A stretch of 34,254 bases of DNA, taken from positions 1-34,254 of IMG/VR virus record IMGVR_UViG_3300030090_001699; one strand, given 5' to 3'. Position numbers and translations under genes: made by a program. The notes beneath the pieces are model-generated. The model saw only the letters and a program-made list of their open reading frames with translations. It was not told the DNA's origin and searched no databases. How positions within the stretch are numbered: the first letter of the stretch is position 1; the number at the start of each line of letters is the position of its first letter. Shown piece by piece: positions 4,459-34,254 of the stretch. Source of the DNA: a virus.

Positions 4459-4691
4459 TTATAAAAAGAAAATCTATAGTCACACTAAATATACTTTATT
4501 GGATGCCTGATTATCAGGACATTCTGCAAGAGTTTATATGGCAAACACCAGATATTAAACCAGAGTATCCAAGAGTGCACAAGTTTTTGAATTTCTGGCA
4601 TGATAATATTGATGCAGTTATATCAGAGGTTCTTTTATGCGATGAACATGATACATCATACAGGCCAGTGAAGGAGATTTATAATGGCTAA
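4455..4691 (+). CDS. Conserved hypothetical protein in baseplate operon (78 aa)
   Basis: The start overlaps the previous stop as ATGA (4455-4458), a sign of translational coupling. The 78-residue product is aromatic-rich and probably helical (NILYWMPDYQDILQEFIWQ, then PRVHKFLNFWHDNIDA). I recall similar small proteins next to gp25 in marine T4-like phages but know no function. It overlaps the next gene by 8 bases in an ATGGCTAA junction. Confidence 0.7.
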   Translation: MIIKRKSIVTLNILYWMPDYQDILQEFIWQTPDIKPEYPRVHKFLNFWHDNIDAVISEVLLCDEHDTSYRPVKEIYNG

Positions 4692-4956: not shown

Positions 4957-4957
4957 G

Positions 4958-4965
4958 TATAAATA
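4958..4965 (+). promoter_or_regulatory. T4-type late promoter before gp25
   Basis: A perfect TATAAATA, with its first T 26 bases before the gp25 ATG. With the T4 start offset this gives a leader of about 13 bases containing AAAGGA (4972-4977), a usable ribosome-binding site. It lies right after the stop of the previous gene. Confidence 0.8.
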
Positions 4966-4983
4966 ATATAAAAAGGATTACTC

Positions 4984-20500: not shown

Positions 20501-20894
20501 TGCAATTTATTTGACTAAACGTGCGACACTACAAAATCCCGCGACATCTCTTAGAGTTCTTTTTGATGCAAATAGAGAAAGCACTGCCGACATTAAAGTT
20601 CTTTTCAAAATTCTAAGAACTGATGATGCGAGTGACTTTGATGAACTAGACTTTAAATTCTTTAATGATGATGGAACTGTTACTGGTTCTGGTGGACCTG
20701 ATGTAAGTGTGAACCCCTCACTCGGTCTTGATCAATTCAATGAATACGAATTTACGGCGGGTGTCACAGATGATGGTATCGGCACACCACTTGATGAGTT
20801 CATTGCTTTCCAGATTAAGATTGTCTTACGAGCAACAAACTCTGCAAGACCACCAAGGATTAAAGACCTTAGAATTCTAGCACTGGCAACATAA
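14523..20894 (+). CDS. Giant DUF4815-type baseplate/fibre-connecting protein (2123 aa)
   Basis: The first 60 residues (NLNSAPYYDDFDKDKNFVRT, then LFRPGFAIQARELTQLQSQL) are the hallmark of the DUF4815 proteins of marine T4-like phages, which sit where T4 has gp9 and gp10. Residues about 93-115, 505-550 and 820-880 carry GEKITG/SGATA-like modules. Residues about 602-630 hold a LLEDSVTRADGSIVLEED unit like those of the protein at 7349. The region near 1120-1180 contains a short helix (IGKIEERLTNVERTTTLSLL). The C-terminal third is beta-rich and resembles a sugar-binding or fibre-attachment region. By position it probably links the wedge to the fibres. At 2123 residues it is the largest protein in the window. 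Confidence 0.85.
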   Translation: MAQKTNLNSAPYYDDFDKDKNFVRTLFRPGFAIQARELTQLQSQLQFQIESHGSHIFKEGAMVVPGANNVETYYSLKLATQFGSENVDPSKYYNATTPVTITGATTGVQAEVIGFQAGTTTEQPLLFLNYTRAGTDNISTVFADGENISADVAIQHSSISYSANVASSTTFTATSTDVKSATGPASRKGSAYFVRPGVFYVRGFFVAVTNQVLTLDPYDREFSGFVGFDITETLTTPETDTTLLDNAQGSSNFAAKGAHRLQISLTLAKKTTSTNSDFIQLAQLKSGVSVAQGRDTEYNVLSDEFARRTFDESGNYTVRPFQFQVQESVTVNENTGRFTAGASTDDGNVASTDLLAIKVSPGKAYVNGYEIEKNVPSIKDLNKARDFETKNSDITIFDSGNFALITNIYGTPDISEISGETTPFKEVQFYDTPTSTRGTANGTLIGVGRARSMQFNAGVAGSSSSNNTSVYRLHLFDLRPFTIITLSDTPSPLLTATHADGVQVKGVTSGATGFVFGEGTSATNVNLTNVVGSFVAGEKITSSDSAESDDIVENSSNVDLTISSVVTKSFADFRQVFMDDPTNADEDFTADLVTEAEAQVDFVLLEDSVTRADGSIVLEEDNSTVVSLERVESAKLKDAEKNIVLFKPSKKVIKTFLTATNSGASDTSFTIRRQFIGTTDASGVVSFTAGTGETFNGFAESDYTLSVLDIGSGGTHADGDIVSVSGKISGTGSNQITITDSLFNGSKVKLLATTTKTSVTQKNKTVNLMKQLKVVAGDTDAYGTRPTDKDISLGRADAFKLVAVFDSEDSSTDASAPTLTLGTITGTFTRGEKITGSSSGATARIIDITSPASYVLTSAIDFTTSDTITGESSSASAAVSAVTGGSVTITSDFELDTGMRDNFYDISRLVRKGSAPIPQGRLLVVYDYMDHGVGDLMTVDSYTDVANQMDYEDIPSYTATKVDPDDPEPIGAFPLYETLDFRPRVADIAGASTTLTAVDEITGNSFDFTSRVYSGTGASFSNFGKPGSNIQTDFEYYLPKRASIFLDNRGSIIVKEGASSESPQLPTPVDNSMKLADLRIPAFTFKPQDVSLVRQKTQRFTMRDIGKIEERLTNVERTTTLSLLEKDTQSFETTDANGLNRFKSGFIVDPFRGHSVGDVKHPDYRNSIDMQRGELRPIHKTKGIDLIEQATTDAARTTAGYQKTGDLLTLPYTEEVISENPFATTVERVTPFLTASWNGKIELDPDQDSWFETEVAPELVVNVEGNFDAVRAANRNQLGTVWNSWRETWSGRLIFTVTENRGADEEDFITRQQEVGTRRRTGTRTFVEEQIDRESLGFKTLSRVAIPVVRARNISFTATGVRPFTRMYVFFDKVDVNAFVTPDADSTTDTTPVAGSPIIVKSDSRCSGTFAIPDPKVSGNPQFNTGDLLFKLTASSTDASNPASFAQTTYSAQGILETQQETIIATRNGRVVQENVSESSRLFRDPISTAEGDDAGDGDPLAQTFIIADEQNQFKSDLGGSSTDAGRFVTSMDLFFSAKHSTLPVSIEIRNVVNGYPGPKVVPFSRVTKLPADVNTSSDGKTATKFTFPSPVYLQSMAEYCFVVKSNTPEYIMWISDLGQEDSDGNFVSEQPHIGVLFKGHNNRTWAPAPTQDAKFTLRAAKFDTTAAGAVTLTNDELPIATLGKNPLVMTNSNTELKVNHFDHHMYSTANNVTISGVKSGAETTLNGAIGSAATTITLTSGTNFDDTSGKFSRNASNVYFIKIGDEVISYTSISGNVISGATRAVEGTAASHANGATVELYMLHKVPFTEINKTHTSIANIGTDYYTVTLSTTPVVASGGDSQFGGTVVKATENAQYDVNGTIMGTLFPPDTSVVAKIRHTTATSPSGTQTSFAQTSLADAETIPLNDDYYYDRCYMIASGINETNEMSGSKSLIMPLTLSSTNSQVSPVIDLKRMTFLAIANRINQIDSSADVYPTTIFDPMTDPEGDDHDAIYLTKRATLQNPATSLRVLFDANRESTADIKVLFKILRTDDASDFDELDFKFFNDDGTVTGSGGPDVSVNPSLGLDQFNEYEFTAGVTDDGIGTPLDEFIAFQIKIVLRATNSARPPRIKDLRILALAT

Positions 20895-21117: not shown

Positions 21118-23373
21118 ATGGCAGACGTAACCGCGACACAAATTTCTCTTGATAGTTCTCTTGAGCAGTTTAAGGAACAATTTAATAATCTTCAAAGTGA
21201 TGTAGGTGGTATTACCTTAACGTCTTTGGGTGGTGGTAATAGTATTGTCTTTGAAGGTTCAACAGCAGATGATAATGAAACAACTCTTAGTGTGGTTGAC
21301 CCTACCGGAGATAGAACCGTTCTACTGCCAAACGCATCCACCACTTTGGTTGGAACAGACACAACTGACACTTTAACAAATAAAACACTCACCACACCCA
21401 CACTAACAACGCCTATAGCCAATGCGGGTATACAGTTGAAGAACGGAGCAACGAGTGCCGGTTTTCTTGAATTTTTTGAGGATAGTGATAACGGAACCAA
21501 CAAGGTAACTCTTATTGGACCAGCATCCACAGCAGATGTTACCATTACACTCCCATCGTCAGCAGGAACATTAGCTTTATCAGGTGCAAATATTACAGTT
21601 GCTGACGGTGGCACAATTGGGTCAGCTTCAGACACAGATGCTATCTCTATCTCATCTGGTGGTGTGGTTGCTCTTAGTGCGACTACAGCAAACACGAATG
21701 CATCCGATGGTGCGTTGACAGTAGCAGGCGGATTAGGTGTTGCATTAGATGCATCTATTGGTGACGACCTTAGAATGATTTCTGATGCGGCTGTTGTTTC
21801 GTTTGGTGCAAACTCAGAGATTACTTTAACACACGTTCATGATACTGGACTTAATCTAAAACACACTGCCACTGGTGATGATAAACCAATCATACTTACC
21901 CTACAAACAGGCGAGACAGATATTGCTGCTAACGATGTTATCGGTGCAATTAACTTCCAAGCACCAGATGAGGCATCTGCGACAGGCGATAATAAATTAG
22001 TTGCTGCTGGTATCGAAGCGGTATCTGAAGGTGATTTTAGTAATACAAGTAACGCAACCAAGTTAAGTTTTAAAACAGGTGCAAGTGAAGCTGCTGCCGA
22101 GAAAATGTCTCTGAGTTCTGCTGGTCTTCTAACCATTGCAGATGACCTAATAATCAAAGATGGTGGCACTATCGGTGCTACCTCTGCAGCGACTGCAATA
22201 ACAATCGCATCTACAGGTATCGTGTCGTTTGTGGATGATATCACGATTAAAGATGGTGGCACGATTGGGTCAGCATCTGGACCTACTGCGATGACAATTG
22301 ATGCATCTGGTAACGTTACATTTGCTGCAAACCTAACTGTTAATGGTTCAACTGTTACGAACTCAGCGACTAACACAGTCATTGAAGACCAGTTAATAGA
22401 ACTTGGTAATGGAAGAACTGGTAGTGCATCTGGTGATGCTGGTATCGTTATTGAACGTGGGGATGATGCAAACGTATTCATAGGATATGATGAATCGGCT
22501 GATAGAATTCTTTTTGGGACAGGATCATTCACAGGTGCATCAACTGGTGATTTAACAGTAACAACAGCAGGGGTAACTGCTGGATCACTAATTATTGATG
22601 ATGCGGGAACAATCGGTTCTGCAACTGACACTGATGCTATAGCAATCTCTTCTGGTGGTGTTGTAAGTATCTCTGCTACGACGGCAAATACAAATGCCAC
22701 TGATGGTGCATTAACTGTTGCTGGTGGTGTTGGTATCGCCTTAGACGCAAGTATTGGTGATGATCTCAGAATGATCTCTGATAGTTCGGTGATATCTTTT
22801 GGTACGAACTCTGAAATAACCTTGACCCATATTCACAATAGTGGAATCGCACTGAAACATACTGCAACTGCCGATGATCAACCTGTCGCTTTTGTTTTAC
22901 AAACTGGGGAAACAGACATTGCTGCTGACGATGTTATAGGTAGAATTGAGTTTCAGGCACCAGATGAAGGCACAGGAACAGATGCTGTCGCAGTCGCGGC
23001 TGGAATATCTGCTATCTCTGAAGGGGACTTCAGTGCTAGTAATAATGCAACCAAACTTTCATTTAGAACTGCTGTCTCTGAAGCTGCGGTTGAAAAAATG
23101 ACCTTATCATCTAGAGGTGCACTAAAAGCAGAGTCAGGTAAGGCAGAGTTCGGTGGTGACTTTATTGTGATGGATAGTACAGATGGCACTGCTAACGCGG
23201 GTGACAACATCATAATAGAAGATGGTGGCACGGACGGTAGCGGAACTAACGCTGGTGATAATATGTTATATGAGTATTATACATCTTTCACAAATAGTCA
23301 ATTACTCATTAAAGACTCAAGCGGTGCAATAGTTAGAGCAATTTATGGTGTTGGTGGTGATGGAGCAGTATAA
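21118..23373 (+). CDS. Tail-fibre-like protein with 177-aa internal duplication (751 aa)
   Basis: Residues 1-30 are helical (LDSSLEQFKEQFNNLQSDVG). Residues 43-100 carry the phage fibre unit NETTLSVVDPTGDRTVLLPN and DTLTNKTLTTPTLTTPI, typical of trimeric fibres. Residues 105-146 form a module also found in the gene at 11383. A block at 161-337 is repeated at 493-669. Between them lies the segment VIEDQLIELGNGRTGSASGD at 421-440 with the following ER/FIGYDESADRILFG block, common in phage fibres. The C-terminus has DSTDGTANAGDN and GTDGSGTNAGDN, an Asp/Gly motif shared with the protein at 7349. It is likely an adhesive or spacer fibre subunit; its receptor is unknown. Confidence 0.8.
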   Translation: MADVTATQISLDSSLEQFKEQFNNLQSDVGGITLTSLGGGNSIVFEGSTADDNETTLSVVDPTGDRTVLLPNASTTLVGTDTTDTLTNKTLTTPTLTTPIANAGIQLKNGATSAGFLEFFEDSDNGTNKVTLIGPASTADVTITLPSSAGTLALSGANITVADGGTIGSASDTDAISISSGGVVALSATTANTNASDGALTVAGGLGVALDASIGDDLRMISDAAVVSFGANSEITLTHVHDTGLNLKHTATGDDKPIILTLQTGETDIAANDVIGAINFQAPDEASATGDNKLVAAGIEAVSEGDFSNTSNATKLSFKTGASEAAAEKMSLSSAGLLTIADDLIIKDGGTIGATSAATAITIASTGIVSFVDDITIKDGGTIGSASGPTAMTIDASGNVTFAANLTVNGSTVTNSATNTVIEDQLIELGNGRTGSASGDAGIVIERGDDANVFIGYDESADRILFGTGSFTGASTGDLTVTTAGVTAGSLIIDDAGTIGSATDTDAIAISSGGVVSISATTANTNATDGALTVAGGVGIALDASIGDDLRMISDSSVISFGTNSEITLTHIHNSGIALKHTATADDQPVAFVLQTGETDIAADDVIGRIEFQAPDEGTGTDAVAVAAGISAISEGDFSASNNATKLSFRTAVSEAAVEKMTLSSRGALKAESGKAEFGGDFIVMDSTDGTANAGDNIIIEDGGTDGSGTNAGDNMLYEYYTSFTNSQLLIKDSSGAIVRAIYGVGGDGAV
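21598..22131 (+). repeat. Copy 1 of internal fibre repeat
   Basis: Codes for residues 161-337 or so of the fibre protein. It matches copy 2 (22594-23124) through landmarks such as TIGSASDTDA, TANTNASDGALTVAGG, ASIGDDLRMISD, NSEITLTH and LQTGETDIAA. The copies differ by one residue in length and at many synonymous positions. Confidence 0.85.
22594..23124 (+). repeat. Copy 2 of internal fibre repeat
   Basis: Codes for residues 493-669 or so. It has the same landmark order as copy 1 (TIGSATDTDA, TANTNATDGALTVAGG, ASIGDDLRMISD, NSEITLTH, LQTGETDIAA). The offset from copy 1 is about 331-332 codons. Confidence 0.85.
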
Positions 23374-24338
23374 TGACAGTAAGAACGCCACTATGTTTTG
23401 ATGGCTCTGCTTTGAGGCCAATGACTCTGGCTGAAATCAATGAGTGGAAAGCATATACAGCATACCTTTATAGTACTGCACCAACTGTTACTGTAACAGT
23501 CGTTAGTAGTAGTGGTACTTTATCACCAACAATGGCAGACACTAGACTTCAAGCTGGTGCGGCAACAACAGGTCGCGCATCCTCATTTCTTAATGAAGCA
23601 GGGACAGCGGAACCCTCAACTGTTACTGTCAACTTTGATAAACTTACAGGTCCAACCTATGACACATCATTAAGTGCAACTGCTGATCAGGGAGTGCTAG
23701 GATATCCAGTGTATCTTGACAGTGATAATAATATTCGAGCGATGTCTGAAACAGATTATAGAGACACGTTCATATATGCGACACTGACTGACATGGTATC
23801 AAGTAGCGAGAGTTCACTTACGAATGGTACTTTCACTATTACCACCTCTGCTTCTGTTTCAAATTACACTGAAGTCTCTGGGAGTAATACAGTTATTTTT
23901 GCTGATACTCGCGCAGATACCTCAGCGTACAGTGCAGCAGGAATCCCAGAGACACTCGACCAACCAACCACTATCACAAATTATTATCTACAAAGACGTA
24001 GTGATGCAAGGTCTTTTCCATCACAGGCGCTTTTGTTTGCAGATACAAATGGAAATTTTGACCAGTCTGACTTAACTTCAGATACGAGTTCATTTAACGC
24101 TATTTTAAAAAATGATATTCGTTTCTATGCGGCAGAGGATTCTGCTGGAAATAAACTATCGTACAATATAAATGGTAGTGGTAACTCTAGAGGGACAGCA
24201 ATGGTTGACACTAGACTGAACGGAAGTGGTAATTATCAGACTTTGCTGGCTGGTCTTGATGATTATCGTTCACAAGAATTTCCAGATGGTTCTCCCGCAA
24301 CCATAAATACATATACGTTCAAAATCACTCAAGTGTAA
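23373..24338 (+). CDS. Virion structural protein (321 aa)
   Basis: The start overlaps the fibre stop as TAATG. The 321-residue product opens MTVRTPLCFDGSALRPMTLA, a beginning I recall from structural proteins of marine T4-like phages (M.RTPL.....L..M). It continues with beta-rich sequence (QGVLGYPVYLDSDNNIRAMS, residues about 108-127) and ends with a small RSQEFPDGSPATINTYTFKI domain. It is the last clearly structural gene before the accessory cassette. Location on the virion is unknown. Confidence 0.75.
   Translation: MTVRTPLCFDGSALRPMTLAEINEWKAYTAYLYSTAPTVTVTVVSSSGTLSPTMADTRLQAGAATTGRASSFLNEAGTAEPSTVTVNFDKLTGPTYDTSLSATADQGVLGYPVYLDSDNNIRAMSETDYRDTFIYATLTDMVSSSESSLTNGTFTITTSASVSNYTEVSGSNTVIFADTRADTSAYSAAGIPETLDQPTTITNYYLQRRSDARSFPSQALLFADTNGNFDQSDLTSDTSSFNAILKNDIRFYAAEDSAGNKLSYNINGSGNSRGTAMVDTRLNGSGNYQTLLAGLDDYRSQEFPDGSPATINTYTFKITQV
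24302..24309 (+). promoter_or_regulatory. Possible variant late promoter (CATAAATA)
   Basis: The same one-mismatch octamer as the gp8 promoter lies inside the end of the preceding gene, 48 bases before the ATG at 24350. The spacing differs from the other sites (26 or 30), so this may be chance. If active it would drive the accessory cassette. Confidence 0.25.
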
Positions 24339-24349
24339 GGAAAATCAAC

Positions 24350-24916
24350 ATGGCATATTTTTGGGAAGGTAAAATTGCAGACGTTGTTTATGCAAATCCA
24401 GAATTAGACACAGTAAAGATTCTGTGGAAAGATGAGGGTGACGATTATCACGAACACTATCTTGAGGTTAATGAAGAAGATGACCAGTTTAAGGCACTTT
24501 TAGAAAAGGTTGGATATGATGATATTGACGAGAGAACGAAAGCTGCAAATGAAATAGTTCGTCAAGAGTTCAAGACCGCATTTACAGATTATGCTGAACG
24601 CATGGGGATGAACATCGATAATGTAAAAAACCCAGAGTACAAAGATGCAGACTATTTCAAATTTTTTGTCTCCTTTAGCCCAGAGAATCCAGAGAACAAA
24701 GAAAGATTGTTTTCACTTAAACTTAATATATTTGAACAGGTTGAGGTAAAAAACTCTGATGTATCCGAAAAGACAAAAAGTGCAAAGACTGCTATTAGAA
24801 AATCAAATGACCCCATAGAAGCTCTTGCGTCTTATCAAATTTTTAGAAATGATAAAAGTGAAATTAAGAAAGATGATGAAGGTAACGTTATTGGAGTTTA
24901 CGTTTCTTTTGAATGA
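24350..24916 (+). CDS. Conserved hypothetical protein heading the accessory cassette (188 aa)
   Basis: A Shine-Dalgarno (AAGGAAA, 24338-24344) precedes the ATG. The product is highly charged and acidic. Its first third is beta-like (EGKIADVVYANPELDTVKIL), its middle is helical (DIDERTKAANEIVRQEFKTA), and its C-terminus is a second mixed domain (PIEALASYQIFRNDKSEI). I recall comparable proteins next to fibre genes in marine T4-like phages but cannot name a function. It overlaps the carbamoyltransferase start as ATGA. It may belong to the structural operon rather than to the cassette. Confidence 0.7.
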   Translation: MAYFWEGKIADVVYANPELDTVKILWKDEGDDYHEHYLEVNEEDDQFKALLEKVGYDDIDERTKAANEIVRQEFKTAFTDYAERMGMNIDNVKNPEYKDADYFKFFVSFSPENPENKERLFSLKLNIFEQVEVKNSDVSEKTKSAKTAIRKSNDPIEALASYQIFRNDKSEIKKDDEGNVIGVYVSFE

Positions 24917-26235
24917 TTATAGGTATATCAGAAGGTTTTCATGACGCTGCTATTTGTGTCCTAGATGATAACAAGATTGTTTTTGCATCTCACGCAGAAA
25001 GACATAGCAGAAAGAAGGGTGACAAATATCTCCACGAAAATCAATTGTCAAAGATACGAGACAATCGTGATGCAATAGTCTCATACTATGAGAAACCATT
25101 TTCCAAAAATATAAGACGACTCTATGCTGGTCAGAGATGGAAGAAACCACGTTTGAAATATGATGTGAGTTTTAATCATCATGAATCTCACGCTGCCGCA
25201 GGGTACTATACCGCACCATTTGATGACTGTAATATTATTGTTGTTGATGCGATTGGTGAGTGGGACACTGTGTCTATCTGGGACAATATGAAAAAGGTAA
25301 AGTCTTGGAAGTATCCATATTCGCTGGGACTTTTATATTCTGCAATCACACAACGTATCGGTTTGAAACCCAATGAGGATGAGTATATTACGATGGGTAT
25401 GGCTGCATTTGGTCAACCCATATATGATTTAGAACCTTTACTGTGGCAAAATAATCATCGTGGAGTTGGTAACGTCTGGAAAGATGCATGGAAAGTTGAC
25501 CTTGCTGCATCTGTGCAAGCTCTATACGAGAAAAAACTTCTAGAACTGGTTGATATGTGCCCCAAGGAAAATATCATTCTGATGGGTGGATGTGCGCTGA
25601 ACTGTGTTGCAAACAGTAAAATACAGGGAAAGAATATCTGGATAATGCCGTCGCCTGGCGATGCGGGTTCTGCATTAGGTGCTGCTGCACTAGTAAACAA
25701 AAGAAAGTTACAGTGGGAAGGTCCATATCTTGGAACTGATATTGACCGTCCAATATGGGTTCGTGGTGTTATTCAAGAAATTCTGAAGAATAAGGTGTGT
25801 GGTGTTGCACATGGTCGAGCAGAGTTTGGACCTCGCGCACTTGGTAATCGTTCTCTGTTAGGTGACCCAAGATACAATATCAAAGACACAGTAAATGATA
25901 TCAAAAGACGACAGAGGTTTCGTCCTTTCGCACCAGCTATCTTAGAGGAGTATGCGGATGAATACTTCGAAGGACCAATGAACGAATATATGCAATTTGT
26001 TGCCACCGCGAAACACGATTACAAGTCTGTCACTCACGTTGATGGAACTGCAAGAGTACAGGTTGTAAAGAAGAACTGCAAGTCTGTCATTCGTCCTATT
26101 TTAGAAGAGTGGTATGATGCGACAGGGTGTCCAATGCTTTTGAATACGTCACTAAATATTAAGGGTGAACCGATAGTTGACTCGCCGCGTGACGCTGCTA
26201 GATTTATGGAAAAATATAATGTTCAAGTCTTCTAG
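24913..26235 (+). CDS. NodU/TobZ-family O-carbamoyltransferase (440 aa)
   Basis: All the family landmarks are present. The Kae1-like domain has GISEGFHDAAICVL (4-17), the metal-binding HHESHAA (89-95; H89 and H93), VVDAIGEWD (110-118), MGMAAFG (161-167), LMGGCALNCVANS (223-235) and SPGDAGSALGAAAL (247-260). The C-terminal carbamoyltransferase domain has GRAEFGPRALGNRS (301-314), FRPFAPAILEE (336-346) and LLNTSLNIKGEPIVDSP (409-425). The family transfers a carbamoyl group from carbamoyl phosphate, through carbamoyladenylate, to a hydroxyl of a sugar or small molecule. At 440 residues it is shorter than NodU or TobZ (roughly 570), yet no core motif is missing. It is coupled by ATGA to the preceding gene. 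The acceptor is unknown. Confidence 0.9.
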   Translation: MIIGISEGFHDAAICVLDDNKIVFASHAERHSRKKGDKYLHENQLSKIRDNRDAIVSYYEKPFSKNIRRLYAGQRWKKPRLKYDVSFNHHESHAAAGYYTAPFDDCNIIVVDAIGEWDTVSIWDNMKKVKSWKYPYSLGLLYSAITQRIGLKPNEDEYITMGMAAFGQPIYDLEPLLWQNNHRGVGNVWKDAWKVDLAASVQALYEKKLLELVDMCPKENIILMGGCALNCVANSKIQGKNIWIMPSPGDAGSALGAAALVNKRKLQWEGPYLGTDIDRPIWVRGVIQEILKNKVCGVAHGRAEFGPRALGNRSLLGDPRYNIKDTVNDIKRRQRFRPFAPAILEEYADEYFEGPMNEYMQFVATAKHDYKSVTHVDGTARVQVVKKNCKSVIRPILEEWYDATGCPMLLNTSLNIKGEPIVDSPRDAARFMEKYNVQVF

Positions 26236-27025
26236 AAAAAAACTAATTGCAGTTGGATGTAGTTTTACAGATCACTATTTAGTTTCATCTCAAAGTCCTC
26301 ACGTAGACCATGATTTTATAAGATGGCCGCAATACCTTGCAGAGATGCTTGATATGGGGTTTATCAACCTTGGTCGTAGTGGTGCCGGTAACGACCAAAT
26401 TTTAGCAAAAACTCTTGATGCTATGTTAAAGGAAAAAGATGTTGGATTAGTTGTTTTAATGTGGAGTGAGTGGCAAAGAATAGGATTTCAACGAAATAAA
26501 ATCTGGGATATATGGCATCAAGTTACTCCTCATATGTCTGATGATTATGCGTTAAAATTATTTGAATTGCAAAATCCTCGTCACGCAACTCGAAATGCAC
26601 TTAGGACATTTATACATGCAGAAAAACTTTTAAGAGATGTGCCTTACATGTTAATTCAAGGGACTAACTTTATGACTTATTATAATACGGAAACGTCAAA
26701 AGGAATTGATTGTTCACAAGGCACCCCACACGAAAATGATAATTTTTTTAAGTTAAATGATAGTCGCACTGTAGCAGCAAAAGTAATGTTTGCATGTAAT
26801 GACTATTTTAATTATATCGAAAATAATATAGGAGATAAATTCATAGGTTGGCCTATTTTGAGAGAAATTGGTGGATATTGCATTTCAGATATTCTTGAAA
26901 AGGAAGACCCATCAAGAACGACATTAACAATTTCTCAAGATGATTCCCATCCTAACGCAGCGGGTCACAAGCTTATTGCAGACTTTTTATACGGTAAATA
27001 CAGAGAGATATATAATGACCATTAA
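26219..27025 (+). CDS. SGNH/GDSL hydrolase-like protein, copy 1 (268 aa)
   Basis: I place the start at ATG 26219 (17-base overlap with the carbamoyltransferase). An in-frame ATG at 26177 lies deeper in that gene and has no support. The SGNH blocks are visible: AVGCSFTDHY (11-20) with S15 as likely nucleophile, NLGRSGAGND (50-59) giving the Gly and N58, and DDSHPNAAGH (241-250) with the D/H pair. The family includes esterases, lipases and O-acyltransferases that act on acylated sugars. It shares a FIGWPI..EIGG segment (208-219) with the second copy at 29144. There is no signal peptide, so it should act in the cytoplasm. Base composition looks AT-rich. Confidence 0.75.
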   Translation: MFKSSRKKLIAVGCSFTDHYLVSSQSPHVDHDFIRWPQYLAEMLDMGFINLGRSGAGNDQILAKTLDAMLKEKDVGLVVLMWSEWQRIGFQRNKIWDIWHQVTPHMSDDYALKLFELQNPRHATRNALRTFIHAEKLLRDVPYMLIQGTNFMTYYNTETSKGIDCSQGTPHENDNFFKLNDSRTVAAKVMFACNDYFNYIENNIGDKFIGWPILREIGGYCISDILEKEDPSRTTLTISQDDSHPNAAGHKLIADFLYGKYREIYNDH

Positions 27026-27119
27026 GAAATTTATTTACAGGGTAAGATTTTTCTTATCCCGTTTTAAAAAATACGAACATAAAGAACACAATTTTATTTA
27101 TGAACAGGATGATGAATAA
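27015..27119 (+). CDS. Possible small basic-acidic peptide (34 aa)
   Basis: A 34-codon frame starts at ATG 27015, inside the end of the SGNH gene, and ends at TAA 27117-27119. The product is basic first (MTIKKFIYRVRFFLSRFKKY) and acidic last (FIYEQDDE). GAGAG (27003-27007) could serve as ribosome-binding site. It overlaps the previous gene by 11 bases and the next by 8, which would close the only gap in a chain where all other genes overlap. A hairpin lies within it, so the stretch might instead be untranslated. Confidence 0.5.
   Translation: MTIKKFIYRVRFFLSRFKKYEHKEHNFIYEQDDE
27040..27065 (+). terminator. Possible intrinsic terminator or attenuator hairpin
   Basis: GGGTAAGA (27040-27047), a TTTT loop and TCTTATCCC (27052-27060) form an 8-bp stem with one bulged T (27057). 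It is followed by GTTTT and then A residues. The U-run is short, so termination would be weak. It overlaps the candidate 34-aa gene, and the two readings compete. Confidence 0.35.
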
Positions 27120-27828
27120 TATATTTTGTATAAAGTGGGGTGATAAATATGATGACTCTTATGTTGAGAAACTAAAAGAGCAATGTGAGAAAAACTGTTC
27201 TGTTGATTTCAGCTTCTATTGTTTTACTGACAACCCGATTCGTGATTATGATATCCAACTTCCGACATATCTAGACAAACACTACGATCAGGACAAAGGT
27301 TTCTTTTGGGCCTGGCGTAAGTGTTACATGTTCAGTGATGACTATGTTGAGGGTAACAAGTTTCTTTTTCTTGACCTTGATGTTATCATTCACCAAGACC
27401 TCAAATATTTCTTTGAGTTGCCAATGAACAAACCTTGGATTGTCCGTGGGTGGTGGAATAACATGGAAACAGTCAAGAAAAACTATGCTCGTTATAAATC
27501 AACACCACTTAACTCGTCTGTCATTCGATGGAACAGGGGTCAAATGATTCCTGTCCTACAACATGTTAGAGATAATGCGGAGGTTATTTTCTTTACATAT
27601 CCTAGTTTAGATAATTACTTTGCACACCATTGGTATAATCCTTGGGAAGACAGTGGTTATGTTCAAGGATTTCCACAAGGTGATATTTACTCTTGGTATA
27701 AAGGTAATGTGTTTCCTGATGATATGGAGAGTAATATACTTAGACCTGACTACAAGATTTGTTTGTTTAATAATAGTGGATTTACAGAGGGCAAGAATGA
27801 TGATAAATGGAATTACATTAACACCTGA
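27112..27828 (+). CDS. GT-A type glycosyltransferase-like protein, copy 1 (238 aa)
   Basis: The 238-residue product begins NNIFCIKWGDKYDDSYVEKL, closely parallel to the start of the second copy (MDIVCVRIGDKYGPEYEEYL, 32280). This supports the ATG at 27112 over those at 27100 and 27109. The metal-binding DxD is DLD at 88-90 in KFLFLDLDVII, after a strand typical of GT-A nucleotide-sugar transferases. A later region (LNSSVIRWNRG, 133-143) would form the acceptor side. Sugar donor and acceptor are unknown. It overlaps the methyltransferase gene by 32 bases. No membrane segment is visible, so cytoplasmic action is expected. Confidence 0.75.
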   Translation: MNNIFCIKWGDKYDDSYVEKLKEQCEKNCSVDFSFYCFTDNPIRDYDIQLPTYLDKHYDQDKGFFWAWRKCYMFSDDYVEGNKFLFLDLDVIIHQDLKYFFELPMNKPWIVRGWWNNMETVKKNYARYKSTPLNSSVIRWNRGQMIPVLQHVRDNAEVIFFTYPSLDNYFAHHWYNPWEDSGYVQGFPQGDIYSWYKGNVFPDDMESNILRPDYKICLFNNSGFTEGKNDDKWNYINT

Positions 27829-28450
27829 TTTATTATATCTTTGGAAAAAATCCCTTGTGGGTGCCATGAGAGATTCACCTCACGCTTTTGATAGGGTGAT
27901 ATCTTCTATCAATGCATCACAACTACAAAGTAAATTATGGATTGTTAATGAATTAAATAACCTCAATATCCATCAAAAGTCAGCGGCGCTTCTAGGTGGG
28001 TGGTATGCTCACTTCACTGTCCCTCTTTTACTAGAACAGGGTGTTGAATTCGTTCATAACTTTGAAATAGATGAAGATGTTAAAAGAATTAGCTACAAGT
28101 TTAATAAAGAACATAAGGATAATGACCGATACAAGTGTGACATTGTAAATGTTATGTTTGAACCTATCTGGAAAAAACAAAAGAAAACAGATAAGGTTTT
28201 TGATTTGGTGATTAATACATCATGCGAACACATGTTTCCTATGAAACAATTTCACAAACTCAACAGGGGATTTCTAGACAATCCAATTTTTGTGTTACAG
28301 TCAACCAATGAGAATAAATATGAGGACCATATAAACTGTGTGAACGGACCAGAGGAACTTGCAGAGCAATCAGAACTGGTAGACATTATGTACAGCGGAG
28401 CGAAAACGTTAGACAGCGGTATGCAGAGGTTCATGGTGATAGGTAAATGA
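27797..28450 (+). CDS. SAM-dependent methyltransferase-like protein (217 aa)
   Basis: I place the start at ATG 27797, with AGAGGG (27785-27790) as ribosome-binding site; the frame is open further upstream but lies inside the glycosyltransferase gene. A class I Rossmann pattern can be followed: AALLGGWYAHFTVPLLL (63-79) as motif I, HNFEIDEDVKRI (87-98) with the acidic end of strand 2, then FDLVINTSCEHM (135-146) as motif IV. The Gly-rich loop is unusual (GGWY rather than GxGxG). A carbon, oxygen or nitrogen methylation of the cassette product is plausible; the substrate is not known. It is coupled to the next gene by ATGA. Confidence 0.65.
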   Translation: MMINGITLTPDLLYLWKKSLVGAMRDSPHAFDRVISSINASQLQSKLWIVNELNNLNIHQKSAALLGGWYAHFTVPLLLEQGVEFVHNFEIDEDVKRISYKFNKEHKDNDRYKCDIVNVMFEPIWKKQKKTDKVFDLVINTSCEHMFPMKQFHKLNRGFLDNPIFVLQSTNENKYEDHINCVNGPEELAEQSELVDIMYSGAKTLDSGMQRFMVIGK

Positions 28451-29151
28451 GTCACAAACAGATTGTAGATTGGTGTAGAGACAATGATGTCTGGTATCTC
28501 AAGATGGATATAGAGATACCAGAGGTTTGTATTCAAGAGGCACAGGCTGTATATGATGAGGGGTTCTTTGTAGAACATCGTTTTGGTAATGGTGGTCATG
28601 GTGGTTGGAAGTCTGCATCTATTCATAGTTTTGTGGAGAAGGGTAAAGACCTAGACATGGGTTGGTTTCACACTAAGAACCCAGAGGGTCATGGATTGCG
28701 AGAGGATCAAGTTGATTGGGGTTGGACAGAGATTGCTGAAGTATGCCCAGAGACAAAGAGATGGTTAGAGGACTTTCCACACAAATCATATCGACGTTTG
28801 CGTTTCATGTTATTAGAGCCGGGTGCAAGTATCGACGCACATAACGATGCAAGTCCACAAAGAGTTCGTGAAGGTAGAATTAGAAATATTGCTGGTGCAA
28901 TCAATATTGCATTTTATCAACCAGAGAACTGTTATCTAAGACGTGCAGATACAAAAGAAGAGTTGCCATTTGATAACTGCACTGGTTTCTGGTTTGACAA
29001 TGGTGTGGAACACGAGGCACTAAACAGTTCGAATGAGAACAGATATCACTTCATTATGCATGGTGGTTTTAATAAAGAGCGTGAGGAGCTAATGAGAAAG
29101 TCTCTCGTAAAACAGTTTGGTAAAGATGTTTTGAAAGAGATTGATGGCTAA
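28447..29151 (+). CDS. Asp/Asn beta-hydroxylase-like 2OG-Fe(II) oxygenase, copy 2 (234 aa)
   Basis: The start overlaps the previous stop as ATGA. The cupin core of the AspH family is clear in the C-terminal half: FMLLEPGASIDAHNDASP (120-137) supplies H132-N-D134, then IAGAINIAFYQPENCYLRR (148-166), GFWFDNGVEHEALNSS (180-195) with distal H189, and NRYHFIMHGG (198-207) with R199 as likely 2-oxoglutarate ligand. The N-terminal 110 residues are a separate domain with several conserved-looking Trp and His. It probably hydroxylates a side chain or small molecule made by the cassette. It is longer than the oxygenase at 438 and is not a recent duplicate of it. Confidence 0.8.
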   Translation: MSHKQIVDWCRDNDVWYLKMDIEIPEVCIQEAQAVYDEGFFVEHRFGNGGHGGWKSASIHSFVEKGKDLDMGWFHTKNPEGHGLREDQVDWGWTEIAEVCPETKRWLEDFPHKSYRRLRFMLLEPGASIDAHNDASPQRVREGRIRNIAGAINIAFYQPENCYLRRADTKEELPFDNCTGFWFDNGVEHEALNSSNENRYHFIMHGGFNKEREELMRKSLVKQFGKDVLKEIDG

Positions 29152-29887
29152 AAAAATATTAATTGCCTCTGGGGATAGTTGGACAGGAGGCACCCATAGG
29201 GATAAACCAAACTCTTATCCGTATTGGCCTGAAATTTTAGCAGACAAACTTAATATGGATTATATTAATTTCGGTAGAGGGGGAAAAGGTAATGAATTTA
29301 TATACAACAAAATGGTTGATGCTTTATGTGTAACCAAGACTAAACGGGTGGGATTAGCAATTTGTTTATGGTCAAAATTTGATAGATGGGATTTATGTAA
29401 ATGGACATTTAGAAGTCCCGGCATTAATGACCCACAAGCACACTACCCTTACATGGTTGAGCAACAATTTAGAACAGAAGTAGAACTGCTTCGACGTGAC
29501 AAATTTGTAAATGCTATCTATGAAAACAAAGATTTAGTGAATGAAACTTATAGTTTATTAAAAAGCATACGGTGGTTTCATGCGTTTCAAAATCATTGTG
29601 AATTACAAAATATACCATATCTACAAATGCAAGGTTTTCGTCCTACACACATTATAAAAAAAGAATTTTTTGATTGTCCTCAATTTGATTTTATTGATGA
29701 TAATAAATTTATAGGGTGGCCAATATATGAGGAGATTGGTGGTAAAAGTATGTGGGATAAACTTGATGAGGTTGACCCGAAACAAGTTGAATTAAGAGTA
29801 AGTAAAGAGGACTTACACCCTAACGATAGAGGTCATGAATATATGGCAGAGGTATTTTATGAAAAATACAGTAAAAGTTATGGTTAA
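29144..29887 (+). CDS. SGNH/GDSL hydrolase-like protein, copy 2 (247 aa)
   Basis: The start is ATG 29144 in an ATGGCTAA junction with the previous stop. The blocks are LIASGDSWTGG (6-16) with S12, NFGRGGKGNEF (42-52) with N50, and KEDLHPNDRGHEYMAE (221-236) with H225. The FIGWPIYEEIGG segment (189-200) matches the first SGNH protein at 26219. The two are therefore paralogues of about the same size (247 and 268 aa), though diverged. Where copy 1 has D at the DxxH position (D241-x-x-H244), this copy has E222. The DNA is markedly AT-rich. An esterase or O-acyltransferase role on the cassette product is an inference. Confidence 0.73.
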   Translation: MAKKILIASGDSWTGGTHRDKPNSYPYWPEILADKLNMDYINFGRGGKGNEFIYNKMVDALCVTKTKRVGLAICLWSKFDRWDLCKWTFRSPGINDPQAHYPYMVEQQFRTEVELLRRDKFVNAIYENKDLVNETYSLLKSIRWFHAFQNHCELQNIPYLQMQGFRPTHIIKKEFFDCPQFDFIDDNKFIGWPIYEEIGGKSMWDKLDEVDPKQVELRVSKEDLHPNDRGHEYMAEVFYEKYSKSYG

Positions 29888-31019
29888 AAAACTTGAGGAG
29901 TATGAATGGTTTTGTCCAGAACCTTTCACAAATATTACAAACTCCATAACTGGTTTAGGTGAGATGGATATACCCTGTTGTCATATTAATCATATTAAGT
30001 GGAATAGGAGAGGTGAAGGTGAAGACATAAAATCTTTCAGAAAAGAATTTATAAATGGTGGTGGACCTTTAATAGATAAGTTCTGTACTCGGTGTATTAA
30101 ACAAGAAGAATCTGGAAATAAAAGTTTTAGACAAAATTATTTAGATAATTTTGGTGGTAAGTTTGCACACAAGAAAAAGGAGTTAGAAGAAAACTTAGAT
30201 AACCCACCACTACTCACTATGGAATTTAAAGCACATGACAATTTATGCAATCTAAGATGCAATATGTGTAAATCAATATTATCTTCAAGTCTAGCAAAAG
30301 AAAACTTGTCGTTAGGAAAACCAATTCATCATAGGTTGAATAATAATCCTCATTTTAAAAAAGAGTCTAAGATTCCTAACTTGAAAAATTTACTAGAGTT
30401 AAAACTTGTTGGTGGGGAGACGCTAGCTATTTCTGATAACTATAAAGTGATGGAAAAATGTTCAGATGATGTAGTTGTTAGAATTACAACTAATGGAACT
30501 GTAACTCCAAAATTTAATGGTAAAGATATCTTTGATTATATTCCGAAATTTAAAAAGTTTATTATAAATGTTTCTATAGAGTTTTGGGGAGAGAGAAACA
30601 ACTATTTACGATTTCCATCAAAGTGGGAGCGTATCATAGGGAATGTTAAGAGGTTCAAGTCTTTTGATAACTGTGAGGTAAATTATCATTCTACAATAAA
30701 TGCATTGAATGTGGGTTACATGTTAGATATAATTGACAATGCTGATTGTCCATTTAGCTTAGACAATCTAGTGTATGGTGATAATGAAATTTACTCTATC
30801 GTCTCAGTTCCACCAGATATAAGAGAACAATACTTAGAGAGGTATTATCTTGATTACAGAAAAGAAACAGACACTATAATTACATACCTTGAAAATATTG
30901 AACATGATGAGTTTCAAATGACTCGCATGTTACAAGACATCAAGGACAGAGATAAATATCGTGGAACGTGTTTAATTGATTTATTTCCCGAATGGAAAAA
31001 ATATTATGAAAAACTTTGA
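29880..31019 (+). CDS. Radical SAM protein with extra N-terminal cysteines (379 aa)
   Basis: I choose ATG 29880, in an 8-base ATGGTTAA junction like those at 4684 and 29144; ATG 29859 with AGAGG upstream is a close alternative and adds 7 residues. The radical SAM cluster motif CNLRCNMC gives C123, C127 and C130. GGET (178-181) matches the SAM-binding motif, and NVSIEFWGERNN (230-241) fits the barrel. N-terminal cysteines C12, C33, C34, C69 and C72 (in CTRC) resemble the auxiliary cluster or twitch-type region of peptide- and sugar-modifying members. Such enzymes generate a deoxyadenosyl radical to modify unactivated carbons. The substrate is unknown. Confidence 0.8.
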   Translation: MVKKLEEYEWFCPEPFTNITNSITGLGEMDIPCCHINHIKWNRRGEGEDIKSFRKEFINGGGPLIDKFCTRCIKQEESGNKSFRQNYLDNFGGKFAHKKKELEENLDNPPLLTMEFKAHDNLCNLRCNMCKSILSSSLAKENLSLGKPIHHRLNNNPHFKKESKIPNLKNLLELKLVGGETLAISDNYKVMEKCSDDVVVRITTNGTVTPKFNGKDIFDYIPKFKKFIINVSIEFWGERNNYLRFPSKWERIIGNVKRFKSFDNCEVNYHSTINALNVGYMLDIIDNADCPFSLDNLVYGDNEIYSIVSVPPDIREQYLERYYLDYRKETDTIITYLENIEHDEFQMTRMLQDIKDRDKYRGTCLIDLFPEWKKYYEKL

Positions 31020-32289
31020 TGAATTTGTTGCACTATGGATGACGGAAACAAGTAATAAAAAAACATACAAAGAACTAAAACATTTGTTGTTTCTAGTAGT
31101 TTATCCTGATAAACTAAAGTGGGATTTTGGAATAGAGAAACAAACTCAAACCACAACATTTATGGTATCAGGTGGTGCCACTGGAGCCAATGGTAAACAT
31201 GATGTTCGTTTTTGTTATGGAAGTGAAGTTCATGATATTCTTTTAAATTGTGATCATACCCATGCCATGATTGTATCTGTTGGAATGGTATTTGATATGG
31301 TATCTGCCGGGCCTGAAAAACGACAAACATCTATAACAGACTTTTATGACTTCGTAGAAAGTGGTCAGTTTTGCAAAGCACACATAATGGCAAGACCAAA
31401 CCGTAGAGCGTATTTTCATCACCAACATATGAACTTAAATTTGACAATGTGGAAAGATATTGGTGCTCCTGACATGTCGAAGAGATATGATGTTATTAAA
31501 CGGTCCTCTGATAATTTTCATGATGACTACACCCCATCATGGATAGAGGTAGAGGGGATGCCCACTGTCATAAATTTTACGAAAGATGAAAGGTCAAGGA
31601 AATCCTTTTCATACTACAGAAATCATCAAACTGAATCTTGGAAAAACCTTGATAGGATAGATAAAGATGATTACTATTTTAGTAGATTCATGACAAGAAT
31701 ACGAAAGCAGTTTTACATAGAGAATACAGAAAGTTTAGGAAAATTACCCAATGAAAAATTTAATATTATATTTTCTACTACGGCAGGATATCGTGCTGCG
31801 CTACTTGCAGATAAATTAGAGTTTGATGGTGAAGTCATACTATTTGATTATTGTCAAGAAAATCTAGATATAAAACAAATGATTGTAGAAATGAATATGT
31901 CTTTAGAGGAGATTGATTATTATAATAAAATGATTGACCATGATATGGTAATGCCAGATTCTATCGCGTCTGAAAATGCAAATAAAGATATGCCACCATT
32001 TGAAGATTTGAGAAAATTAGAGGAAAGGATGCAAAACAATTGTGATATTGAATACTGGTTGATGGACTTAATATCGCCAGACTATGATAAAATTATGGAA
32101 AAAATTAAAGGCAAAACTGTATTTTTTGATATAACTAATATCTTCAGTTATCACATGTCACACGCATATTACACTCTAGATGAATTAGTCAATTCATATA
32201 ATAAATTGATTGATGTTTTAAAACATGCAGATGGTGCTTACTTACGAGGTCATCGACCAACGAAGCAGAGATTTGATAGATGGATATAG
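31006..32289 (+). CDS. Bipartite protein of unknown function with Rossmann-like C-terminal half (427 aa)
   Basis: The start is ATG 31006, 14 bases before the radical SAM stop. Residues about 49-185 form one domain: FMVSGGATGANGKHDVRFCY, HAMIVSVGMVFDMVSAGP, then MARPNRRAYFHHQHMNLNLT, reminiscent of glycan-active proteins in marine phages but with no clear DxD. Residues about 252-427 look like a Rossmann-fold methyltransferase: FNIIFSTTAGYRAALLADKL (252-271) as motif I, EVILFDYCQENLDIKQMIVE (276-295) as strand 2, and GKTVFFDITNIF (369-380) as strand 4. The canonical GxGxG is absent. It may be a fused transferase of the cassette. No function is assigned. AT-rich. Confidence 0.72.
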   Translation: MKNFDEFVALWMTETSNKKTYKELKHLLFLVVYPDKLKWDFGIEKQTQTTTFMVSGGATGANGKHDVRFCYGSEVHDILLNCDHTHAMIVSVGMVFDMVSAGPEKRQTSITDFYDFVESGQFCKAHIMARPNRRAYFHHQHMNLNLTMWKDIGAPDMSKRYDVIKRSSDNFHDDYTPSWIEVEGMPTVINFTKDERSRKSFSYYRNHQTESWKNLDRIDKDDYYFSRFMTRIRKQFYIENTESLGKLPNEKFNIIFSTTAGYRAALLADKLEFDGEVILFDYCQENLDIKQMIVEMNMSLEEIDYYNKMIDHDMVMPDSIASENANKDMPPFEDLRKLEERMQNNCDIEYWLMDLISPDYDKIMEKIKGKTVFFDITNIFSYHMSHAYYTLDELVNSYNKLIDVLKHADGAYLRGHRPTKQRFDRWI

Positions 32290-32981
32290 TGTGTGTTCGT
32301 ATCGGTGACAAGTATGGACCAGAGTACGAAGAGTACTTAGAGAGAAAGTTATCGAAGTACAACATCATCTGGATACGAGAGCCATATGATGACAGGGTAA
32401 CTCTACAGTGGAATAAAATGTGGGGTATGCAGATGGAGATAGATGAACCTATCTGTGTGATGGATATTGACGTTCTTCTCATTAATGACTACAAGAAAAT
32501 CTTTGACTACCCGATTGAACGAGGACAGTTTGTTGCGATGCCGGGATGGTGGAGAAATGATGTCAATGAGTATCGTATCAATGGTGGGTTTTTTAAATAC
32601 TACCCAAAGGACTGTCGATATATCTACGATAAGTTTATGAGTGACATTCATCACTGGCAGAAGTTCTACATTGAGAACGGAACGACAACAGGACCAGTGA
32701 ACGGAGAACAGTATTTTGTGGAGGATAGTGTCAAGGAACAACTTGACCTTGTAGTTCTACCAAACGAGTGGTTTACAAGGTGGGTTGTTAGTGATGAAAT
32801 AGTCTCTGGTAATGTGAACCAATGGAACTATAAGATGACACAGAAGTATGAACAACTCACGGGGAACGACTACATATATATGGGTGGAGAGTTTCATCCT
32901 GATATAAAGTATGTTCACTTTACTAATAGACTAAACAAGCCACATGAGTGGAGAGACTATGAAAATTTTTGCAGCAACTAG
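32280..32981 (+). CDS. GT-A type glycosyltransferase-like protein, copy 2 (233 aa)
   Basis: The start overlaps the previous stop by 10 bases. The 233-residue product opens MDIVCVRIGDKYGPEYEEYL, aligned with the glycosyltransferase at 27112. Its DxD is DID at 62-64 (CVMDIDVLLI). NGGFFKYYPKD (101-111) fits the acceptor-loop glycine pair of this kind of transferase, and the C-terminus has YVHFTNRLNKPHEWRDY. The paralogue pair suggests two successive sugar transfers or two acceptors. Composition is less AT-rich than in the two genes just upstream. Confidence 0.75.
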   Translation: MDIVCVRIGDKYGPEYEEYLERKLSKYNIIWIREPYDDRVTLQWNKMWGMQMEIDEPICVMDIDVLLINDYKKIFDYPIERGQFVAMPGWWRNDVNEYRINGGFFKYYPKDCRYIYDKFMSDIHHWQKFYIENGTTTGPVNGEQYFVEDSVKEQLDLVVLPNEWFTRWVVSDEIVSGNVNQWNYKMTQKYEQLTGNDYIYMGGEFHPDIKYVHFTNRLNKPHEWRDYENFCSN

Positions 32982-33720
32982 TTCTTCCTCAGATAGTGTC
33001 GCTATGTTGTATAAACTTCTCACTGAAACCACGGATGAAATAGTGTCAAGAATACTTCATCTTGACGCATCTAATCAGGACTTAGAACAGTATCCCATTG
33101 TCTGTGGTTGGTTAAAAGAAAACATTCGTGATTTTGATTTTGGTCTTTCAGAGTTTGAAGATCGTGTTGACGATACCAAATTAGAAACTATAAGGTCAAA
33201 AAATTATAATGTTGCATTGTTGTCAGAGACGCACAATGTTGATTTAATATGCCTTGGTATAAATACATATAATTGGAGTCACGCTACTTGGTATTTCCAA
33301 ACAACAGAACCCACTGAAAATTTTTATGCAAAAGATAATCGGTACTCAAGGATAGACCATTCTATCCTTAGAGATTACACAGATATCTCTATCGACTGGC
33401 CTCTAATGAATCGTAAAACTAAACCTATGGGACGATGGCAAACATGGGAAACCATACCACAAGAACTACAAAAGTTGGTTTCTATGTGCCCTTGTAGAAA
33501 GTGCGCTAAGTGTAAATGTTGGGATTGGTATAATAAAAAGAAACAAGAGGGATTTAGTGCGGAGGAACTTGATGATATAATTATGAAAGAAGGGAAATAC
33601 GGAAAATATTATACAAAAGATAGTGTTACAGAAACCAGACATGATGCTTACACTGACCAAAGATTCCCAGTGTGGAGTGCGGCTTATCAACCATTACCAA
33701 CGAAACCTCACAATAAATAA
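32959..33720 (+). CDS. QueC-like PP-loop ATPase with degenerate P-loop and Cys cluster (253 aa)
   Basis: ATG 32959 is preceded by GGAGAG (32950-32955), inside the glycosyltransferase end; an in-frame ATG at 32944 lacks a site. The PP-loop family motif SGGxDS appears as SSSSDS (8-13) in KIFAATSSSSDSVAMLY. SIDWPLMNRKTKPMGRW (144-160) and IPQELQKLVSMC (166-177) match the region before the zinc site in QueC. The Cys cluster C177, C179, C182, C185 and C187 follows. QueC makes preQ0 for deazaguanine modification; WbpG-like PP-loop proteins amidate sugars. Either reading is possible, and loss of the glycines leaves activity uncertain. Last gene of the cassette. Confidence 0.7.
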   Translation: MKIFAATSSSSDSVAMLYKLLTETTDEIVSRILHLDASNQDLEQYPIVCGWLKENIRDFDFGLSEFEDRVDDTKLETIRSKNYNVALLSETHNVDLICLGINTYNWSHATWYFQTTEPTENFYAKDNRYSRIDHSILRDYTDISIDWPLMNRKTKPMGRWQTWETIPQELQKLVSMCPCRKCAKCKCWDWYNKKKQEGFSAEELDDIIMKEGKYGKYYTKDSVTETRHDAYTDQRFPVWSAAYQPLPTKPHNK

Positions 33721-33723
33721 TGT

Positions 33724-33731
33724 TATAAATA
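33724..33731 (+). promoter_or_regulatory. T4-type late promoter before neck protein
   Basis: A perfect TATAAATA, 26 bases before the ATG at 33750, the same distance as for gp25. The inferred 13-base leader contains AAGGGGAG (33738-33745). Confidence 0.82.
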
Positions 33732-33749: not shown

Positions 33750-34254
33750 ATGGCCACACCCAACTCAAGAACAACATTTAAGAATTATTGTCTACGTTCT
33801 CTAGGTTCTGGTGTCATTGATATTAACGTATCTGATGACCAAGTTGATGACCGTATAGATGAAGCACTTCAGTATTTTGCAGAGTATCACTACGATGGAT
33901 ATGAGAGAATGTATCTCAAGCATCTAGTTACCGAGGCGGATGTCACCCGTGCTAGGGATAACATAACAACCTCAGTAACAGATATCGGAGATGGGACAAT
34001 AACTGCTGACTGGCTAGAGGGAAAGAACTGGATACCCGTTCCAAACACTGTTTTATCCATTGTACAGGTGTTTCCTTTTACGGACACTGGTGGTGGTTCG
34101 AATATGTTCGACATTCGTTATCAGTTACGTCTAAATGATTTGTTTGACCTATCATCTACCTCTGTCATTCAATATCAGATGGCTATGGATAATCTAGACT
34201 TCTTGGAGCACATTCTTGTAGGCGAGACTCCTATTCGGTTCAGTCAACACCAAG
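33750..34254 (+). CDS. gp13: Neck protein, gp13-like (5' part, cut by window end)
   Basis: The frame stays open for 168 codons to the end of the window, so only the N-terminal part is seen. MATPNSRTTFKNYCLRSLGS, INVSDDQVDDRIDEALQYFA and HYDGYERMYLKHLVTEADV are the pattern I know from gp13 of marine T4-like phages. YQLRLNDLFDLSSTSVIQYQ and HILVGETPIRFSQHQ follow. gp13 closes the head-tail neck with gp14. In T4 it also follows the wedge and fibre genes, so order supports gp13. gp14 is the main alternative name. It has its own promoter and ribosome-binding site. Confidence 0.82.
   Translation, partial: MATPNSRTTFKNYCLRSLGSGVIDINVSDDQVDDRIDEALQYFAEYHYDGYERMYLKHLVTEADVTRARDNITTSVTDIGDGTITADWLEGKNWIPVPNTVLSIVQVFPFTDTGGGSNMFDIRYQLRLNDLFDLSSTSVIQYQMAMDNLDFLEHILVGETPIRFSQHQ

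Follow-up and report, generated by a model that had tools for sequence, protein, structure and literature searches.

The window analysed here is the whole of IMG/VR record IMGVR_UViG_3300030090_001699 (positions 1 to 34,254; 34,254 bp), which derives from an uncultured marine T4-like myophage. Between genes of its fibre module on one side and the neck gene gp13 on the other lies a cassette (24913-33720) of ten contiguous plus-strand open reading frames (ORFs), here named A to J in order, together with a micro-gene of 34 amino acids (aa), and both the span and the gene set agree with an earlier note made by eye from the sequence. Neighbouring genes among A to J overlap by 4-23 nt, the sole exception being a 74-nt gap that is occupied by the 34-aa ORF (27015-27119); the two genes upstream of A are named x23373 and x24350. 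The cassette is a real set of modifying enzymes that has been inherited repeatedly, not a random collection of genes, and it is built around H, an undescribed enzyme that is always accompanied by an oxygenase, E. Its genes and the two upstream of it are the following, with the evidence for each in brackets.

23373..24338, + strand: x23373, conserved orphan of the fibre module (bait results; homolog in cultured SAR11 phage Mosig)
24350..24916, + strand: x24350, orphan, first gene of a putative late operon running into the cassette (bait results)
24913..26235, + strand: A, NodU/CmcH-type O-carbamoyltransferase, optional module 1 (PF16861 1.5e-50, PF02543 2.6e-38)
26213..27025, + strand: B, SGNH/GDSL hydrolase- or acyltransferase-like, optional module 1 (PF00657 7.5e-5, just below cut-off)
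27015..27119, + strand: 34-aa micro-gene (hidden Markov model matches in 31-32 groups; basic amphipathic helix and FIYExDD tail)
27100..27828, + strand: C, GT8-like glycosyltransferase, GT-A type with DLD, core (PF01501 0.0044, sub-threshold; alignment)
27824..28450, + strand: D, class I S-adenosylmethionine (SAM)-methyltransferase fold, core, variable (AlphaFold2 predicted local distance difference test (pLDDT) 89.5; Foldseek 2e-8; alignment)
28447..29151, + strand: E, AspH/LpxO-family 2-oxoglutarate (2OG)-Fe(II) oxygenase, core (PF05118 2.7e-10; profile to AspH 4e-9)
29144..29887, + strand: F, second SGNH protein, optional (PF00657 8.2e-6, above cut-off)
29880..31019, + strand: G, twitch-domain radical SAM protein, optional (NF033640 204.8 bits, cut-off 170)
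31006..32289, + strand: H, 427-aa undescribed family, core, variable (AlphaFold2 pLDDT 92.2; invariant HDDYTP)
32280..32981, + strand: I, GT-A glycosyltransferase-like, core, strongly conserved (DID plus GT8-like H-x6-KP; alignment)
32962..33720, + strand: J, PP-loop-like protein with degenerate loop, optional (loop SSSSDS; PDB profile matches only sub-threshold)

The families read from the sequence in the earlier note were mostly borne out by domain searches, motifs and predicted folds. Its carbamoyltransferase, A, has both Pfam domains of the NodU/CmcH type and keeps the motifs HHESH, GGCALN and GPRALG across 60 aligned sequences, carbamoyl transfer to a sugar hydroxyl being the activity predicted for it, and its two SGNH proteins, B and F, retain the catalytic S and DxxH/DxH (GCS and DDSHP in B). 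The two glycosyltransferase-like proteins, C with its DLD at residue 92 and I, which is 57-95% identical in most relatives, are described as GT-A-like only, because they have a DxD but do not reach the Pfam cut-off for GT8 (C scores 17.1 bits against 24.3 for PF01501, and I has no PF01501 match). The model of the methyltransferase-like D shows the Rossmann methyltransferase fold, with 1347 PDB matches at E<=1e-3, and has LGGWYA/AGWFA at the position of the glycine-rich motif I, not the classical GxGxG. The AspH-like E scores 40.8 bits against a PF05118 cut-off of 22.6, with the Fe-binding residues H132-x-D134...H189 and R199 invariant, and the radical SAM protein G carries CNLRCNMC (CxxxCxxC). 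The assignment of J as a PP-loop protein is weak: it is PP-loop-like, but in place of the SGGxDS of PP-loop ATP pyrophosphatases it has SSSSDS. It looks like a duplicated PP-loop gene with a decayed ATP loop, and paralogs elsewhere in the same contigs (e.g. at 16733-17713 of locus L025) retain SGGINS.

A fixed core with optional modules

Relatives of the locus were collected from IMG/VR with seven baits (A, D, E, H, I, x23373 and x24350) plus G, and loci sharing exact 60-mers were grouped; the results sample close relatives, because only the best 80 loci of each bait search were kept. With E as bait, the genes C, D, E, H and I are all present in 22 of 22 groups, and with I as bait in 10 of 10. 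The same genes appear when the bait lies outside the cassette: C, D, E and H follow x24350 in 20/20 groups and all five core genes in 19/20, the next recognised gene after x24350 is a cassette gene in 27/27, and among the 25 groups analysed from the 473 relatives of x23373, D lies downstream in 23, x24350 in 23, I in 22, C in 19 and E and H in 16. Their order is C-D-E-H-I in 26 of 28 groups and D-C-E-H-I in the other two. A wider search with D also finds loci where D occurs but E and H do not, a radical SAM gene being a frequent companion (32/47); G alone as bait gave 3 loci only. In other cassettes there are additional genes for GNAT proteins, APH-type kinases, SPASM radical SAM proteins or more 2OG oxygenases.

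Co-occurrence is thus far above chance, and the set is neither rarely found together nor scattered: it recurs at the same locus in different contigs and under several baits. The proposal of the earlier note, that the set makes or attaches a decorated group, gains support from this co-occurrence, although its single eleven-gene unit has to be replaced by a fixed core, C-D-E-H-I, tied to x23373 and x24350, to which are added an optional module of carbamoyltransferase, SGNH protein and micropeptide and, also optionally, the radical SAM and SGNH proteins and J. That A, B, F, G and J come and go at a hypervariable site is what would be expected of unrelated accessory genes gathered there without a common function, yet the quintet fixed under several baits, its fixed order and the E-H fusions described below contradict such an account for the core, so that as an explanation of the cassette we consider it highly improbable; for F, G and J it is possible.

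Among relatives whose I is at least 85% identical to that of the window, the frame of the core is stable (identity to the window 91-99% for E, 82-94% for C and 87-96% for I) and D and H range far more widely (54-97% and 53-87%). The clearest case, L025, has D at 97, E at 97 and I at 95% with H at 62%. That D and H are exchanged or diverge fast while the frame stays stable suggests that these two genes determine the variable part of the chemistry.

The 34-aa ORF, which the earlier note had listed as a possible peptide, is a real gene, with about 30 distinct homologs in 31 groups and a nonsynonymous divergence (dN) of 0.05-0.07 against a synonymous divergence (dS) of 0.44-0.64 in most comparisons (dN/dS about 0.1; one pair has a dS of 0.15). 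Its helix has a hydrophobic moment of 0.41-0.52 and a net charge of +6 to +10, and the tail (F/Y)IYExDD is likewise common to the homologs. Radical SAM proteins and Asp hydroxylases modify ribosomally synthesised and post-translationally modified peptides (RiPPs), and a conserved micro-gene that stands directly before G in several loci might accordingly encode a RiPP-like precursor matured by G together with E and the transferases. We rejected this reading, which we regard as most improbable, because the peptide tracks the SGNH and carbamoyltransferase genes and not the radical SAM gene: it lies after an SGNH gene in 19/32 placements and occurs in 23/38 groups with A plus SGNH, as opposed to 1/20 core cassettes without both, whereas only 7 of 31 micropeptide groups have G at the locus, short of the co-occurrence expected of precursor and maturase. 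The whole peptide, moreover, is conserved, its end included. We infer that it tethers the carbamoyltransferase-SGNH module to the membrane or acts as its docking peptide.

H and its partner oxygenase

The 427-aa protein listed in the earlier note, H, is predicted with confidence to fold into two domains. Its C-terminal half weakly resembles NNMT-type methyltransferases (Foldseek to NNMT, 1.4e-3) and its N-terminal half weakly resembles GT-A enzymes (Foldseek to XXT1, 5e-3), though the place where the DxD of a nucleotide-sugar site would be expected has none, and HDDYTP is invariant instead. The whole fold recurs in three uncharacterised phage proteins in BFVD (template-modelling score, TM, 0.68-0.72), and no match to H was found in Pfam, PHROGs, NCBIfam, cultured phages or PDB sequences. 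A derivation of its C-terminal half from D was considered and is unsupported, since comparing the profile of H with those of D and I revealed no detectable homology.

The pairing of E with H extends well beyond this cassette. In distant large phages the two genes stand together without C and I, H having diverged there to about 20-30% identity, and in Bdellovibrionota, where one genome scan and an order-wide search yielded E-H loci (L149, L150, L362-L364), they are overlapping genes in L149, a 681-aa H-E fusion in L150, E-H fusions of 716/720 aa in two genomes and, in another genome, domains within a single 1072-aa protein. Fusion in both orders is strong evidence that E and H act consecutively or in a complex. 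Genes for a twitch radical SAM protein or a NodU-type carbamoyltransferase lie near several of the Bdellovibrionota loci. In three of these loci a third domain of about 315 aa, of unknown kind, adjoins E-H or is fused with it, and distant matches to this domain occur in phage loci L332, L300/L302 and L320. One phage contig (L055) holds two diverged H genes, at 3869-5056 and 5447-6619, the second overlapping an E gene.

Expression, setting and target

The following features bear on when the cassette is expressed and on its genomic setting.

14523..20894, + strand: VrlC baseplate protein, 2123 aa (phmmer E=0 to annotated VrlC of HTVC008M and Mosig)
21118..23373, + strand: fibre protein with repeats (phmmer 1e-61 to the HTVC008M gp064 region, annotated 'baseplate wedge initiator')
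24303..24309, + strand: late-promoter-like CATAAATA upstream of x24350, a weaker form of TATAAATA
33724..33731, + strand: T4-type late promoter TATAAATA of gp13, at the cassette end (before gp13 in 52/57 and 21/22 relatives)
33750..34254, + strand: gp13 neck protein, cut by the window end (phrog_211 1.4e-17)

The T4 late promoter TATAAATA occurs six times in the window, always on the plus strand, and five of the copies (at 1162, 4958, 11353, 12004 and 33724) begin 13-30 nt before gene starts (1175, 4984, 11383, 12034 and 33750). A further ATAAATA lies at 12989 (+), before the gene start at 13019. Among relatives, TATAAATA precedes x24350 in 10/24 and 21/55 (about 40%), and it was found before none of about 350 starts of A to J in a first set of relatives and before none of about 220 starts of A, C, D, E, H and I in a second; searches for sigma-70 promoters and terminators gave no excess over shuffled sequences. 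The simplest reading is a putative late operon that is entered at or before x24350 and ends before gp13.

Such a layout disfavours DNA modification. Radical SAM proteins and glycosyl-, methyl- and carbamoyltransferases are among the enzymes proposed for phage base modification, and in distant phages the E-H pair adjoins SbcCD-like recombination genes, both of which would fit a cassette that hypermodifies phage DNA. Only late promoters were found, however, the cassette is linked to fibre-module genes, and 9 of 10 contigs, two of them 148 and 115 kb long, have no gene of the thymidylate synthase family (the contigs may be incomplete), all of which makes this target very improbable. A contig of 91 kb with C, D and I homologs has a thymidylate-synthase-family match with an in-frame TAA (L366, G133:C1:53858-54373). 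The earlier note had left the choice among fibres, host surface and DNA undecided; late promoters and fibre-module linkage favour the virion or host surface over DNA, and the exact target stays a prediction.

The setting is that of the host recognition cluster of pelagi- and cyanomyophages named by Zaragoza-Solas et al. 2020 (PMC7029224). VrlC, at 14523-20894, is the left border of this cluster, gp13 begins at 33750, and fibre and glycosyltransferase-like genes lie between them; since the gene at 14523 is VrlC, the cassette lies at the neck end of the cluster. The gp13 protein shares 63-64% identity with its counterparts in the methylophilales phage Melnitz and the pelagiphage HTVC008M, and no match to cultured phages was found at the DNA level, nor any tRNA or Rfam family in the window. 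Two fibre proteins of the window (11383-12000 and 21118-23373) have near-identical repeat blocks in common (NGATSAGF.EFFEDSDNGTNK, GGTIGSASDTDAISISSGGV-like).

In nearly all the arrangements sampled the cassette is linked to x23373 and x24350, and this, together with the apparent late expression, makes a virion protein of the fibre module the first-choice target; in one locus (L040) fibre gene, x23373, x24350 and cassette stand together ahead of gp8. Our preferred, though tentative, reading is therefore of a late-expressed cassette that decorates a virion fibre-module protein, and its basis is gene content, co-inheritance, E-H fusion, promoter layout and the linkage to x23373 and x24350. The cassette would probably be transcribed along with the fibre-module genes, from late promoters at or upstream of x24350. 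The GT-A-type transferases C and I, the methyltransferase D, the oxygenase E and, in tandem with it, H might build a hydroxylated, methylated glycan-like group, to which the carbamoyltransferase and SGNH proteins, perhaps tethered to the membrane by the micropeptide, would add carbamoyl and acyl substituents or from which they would trim them. The acceptor would be a virion fibre-module protein, most likely x23373, the candidate acceptor or partner of the cassette, or its fibre neighbour, and differing alleles of D and H would alter surface chemistry between close relatives, with a presumed role in adsorption or evasion.

Several observations weigh against this preferred reading. For x23373 there is neither a structural annotation nor a match in PDB, PHROGs or Pfam, so that its place in the virion is a matter of position; H lacks a DxD where one is expected, and its fold matches reach only about 1e-3; the E-H genes of distant phages lie beside recombination and sigma-factor genes, not fibres; and the GT2, amidotransferase and carbamoyltransferase genes of the Bdellovibrionota loci would also fit surface glycans or small molecules.

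The main rival, close behind, is that the cassette remodels a host surface glycan (a lipopolysaccharide O-chain or capsule precursor) during infection and so blocks coinfection or the binding of progeny to debris, which we consider possible if somewhat doubtful. NodU-type carbamoyltransferases, SGNH proteins and GT8-like enzymes are typical of polysaccharide tailoring, the cluster of SAR11 phage Mosig includes a DegT/ArnB-type aminotransferase, the basic amphipathic micropeptide suggests membrane association, and the GT2 and carbamoyltransferase genes of the Bdellovibrionota loci point the same way. It is also the published interpretation, in the searched text of PMC7029224, of GT8-rich pelagimyophage clusters. 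A late operon, on the other hand, would come late for coinfection exclusion, the host-glycan model does not require the linkage to x23373 and x24350, and a nucleotide-sugar DegT aminotransferase was looked for and not found in ten contigs that carry all or part of the cassette.

A bolder and rather unlikely proposal is that E plus H form an undescribed two-enzyme modification system common to marine phages and predatory bacteria. In it E would hydroxylate an acceptor and H, with its DxD-less transferase-like HDDYTP domain and its methyltransferase-like domain, would build on that hydroxyl, the system having been wired in T4-like phages into a late fibre operon where it diversifies the virion surface.

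Relation to known systems

Marine T4-like phages are abundant, and no other part of their genomes varies as much as the host recognition cluster, the content of which is commonly put down as miscellaneous auxiliary genes. With a quintet that is fixed, apparently late-expressed and tied to two orphan fibre-module genes, this content can be read as a single pathway open to testing; x23373, of which the cultured SAR11 phage Mosig also has a homolog, becomes a candidate acceptor, and the enzyme family H comes to light along with its partner oxygenase. That decoration genes occur at this site was known before: for pelagimyophages, glycosyltransferases and radical SAM cassettes have been published there (PMC7029224). 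The cluster as presented in the searched text of that paper agrees with ours in its VrlC-neck position, fibre genes, GT8-like genes, radical SAM cassettes and variability, and differs in that no fixed quintet, H family, E-H unit or late-operon link to x23373 and x24350 is described there. Among open PMC papers, none of those searched describes H as a family, E and H as a unit or the fixed quintet, and nothing useful came from looking there for glycosylated phage virions or for carbamoyltransferases in connection with hypermodified bases; the H family, the E-H unit and the quintet tied to x23373 and x24350 appear undescribed. At the same fibre-neck site HTVC008M carries, on the opposite strand, four 2OG-Fe(II) oxygenase genes and a ferrochelatase-like gene (L152, 18403-21682).

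Among characterised families, A has the two Pfam domains and the conserved motifs of NodU/TobZ-type O-carbamoyltransferases but is shorter (440 aa) and optional in its cassette, and E shares the family score and HxD...H core of human AspH and bacterial LpxO (PF05118) but has a constant partner, H, and a substrate that is only putative. The Bdellovibrionota loci share the adjacency or fusion of E and H and, in several cases, a nearby twitch radical SAM or carbamoyltransferase gene, and differ in being chromosomal and in having, in the stretches read, no C or I homologs, with GT2 and amidotransferase genes instead in two. A close cultured counterpart is the region at 36-82 kb of Pelagibacter phage Mosig EXVC030M (MT647606), which has x23373- and x24350-like genes, SGNH, carbamoyltransferase and PF05118 oxygenase genes, and homologs of D (5e-29) and of I and C (2e-26); HTVC008M gp065 and gp066, at one time considered as homologs of x23373 and x24350, were dropped, as Mosig alone matched. 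Mosig differs in gene order and strands, in extra aminotransferase and MoaA-like genes and in having no detected H, and because this cultured phage carries the homologs just listed, though not H, part of the model can be tested in it.

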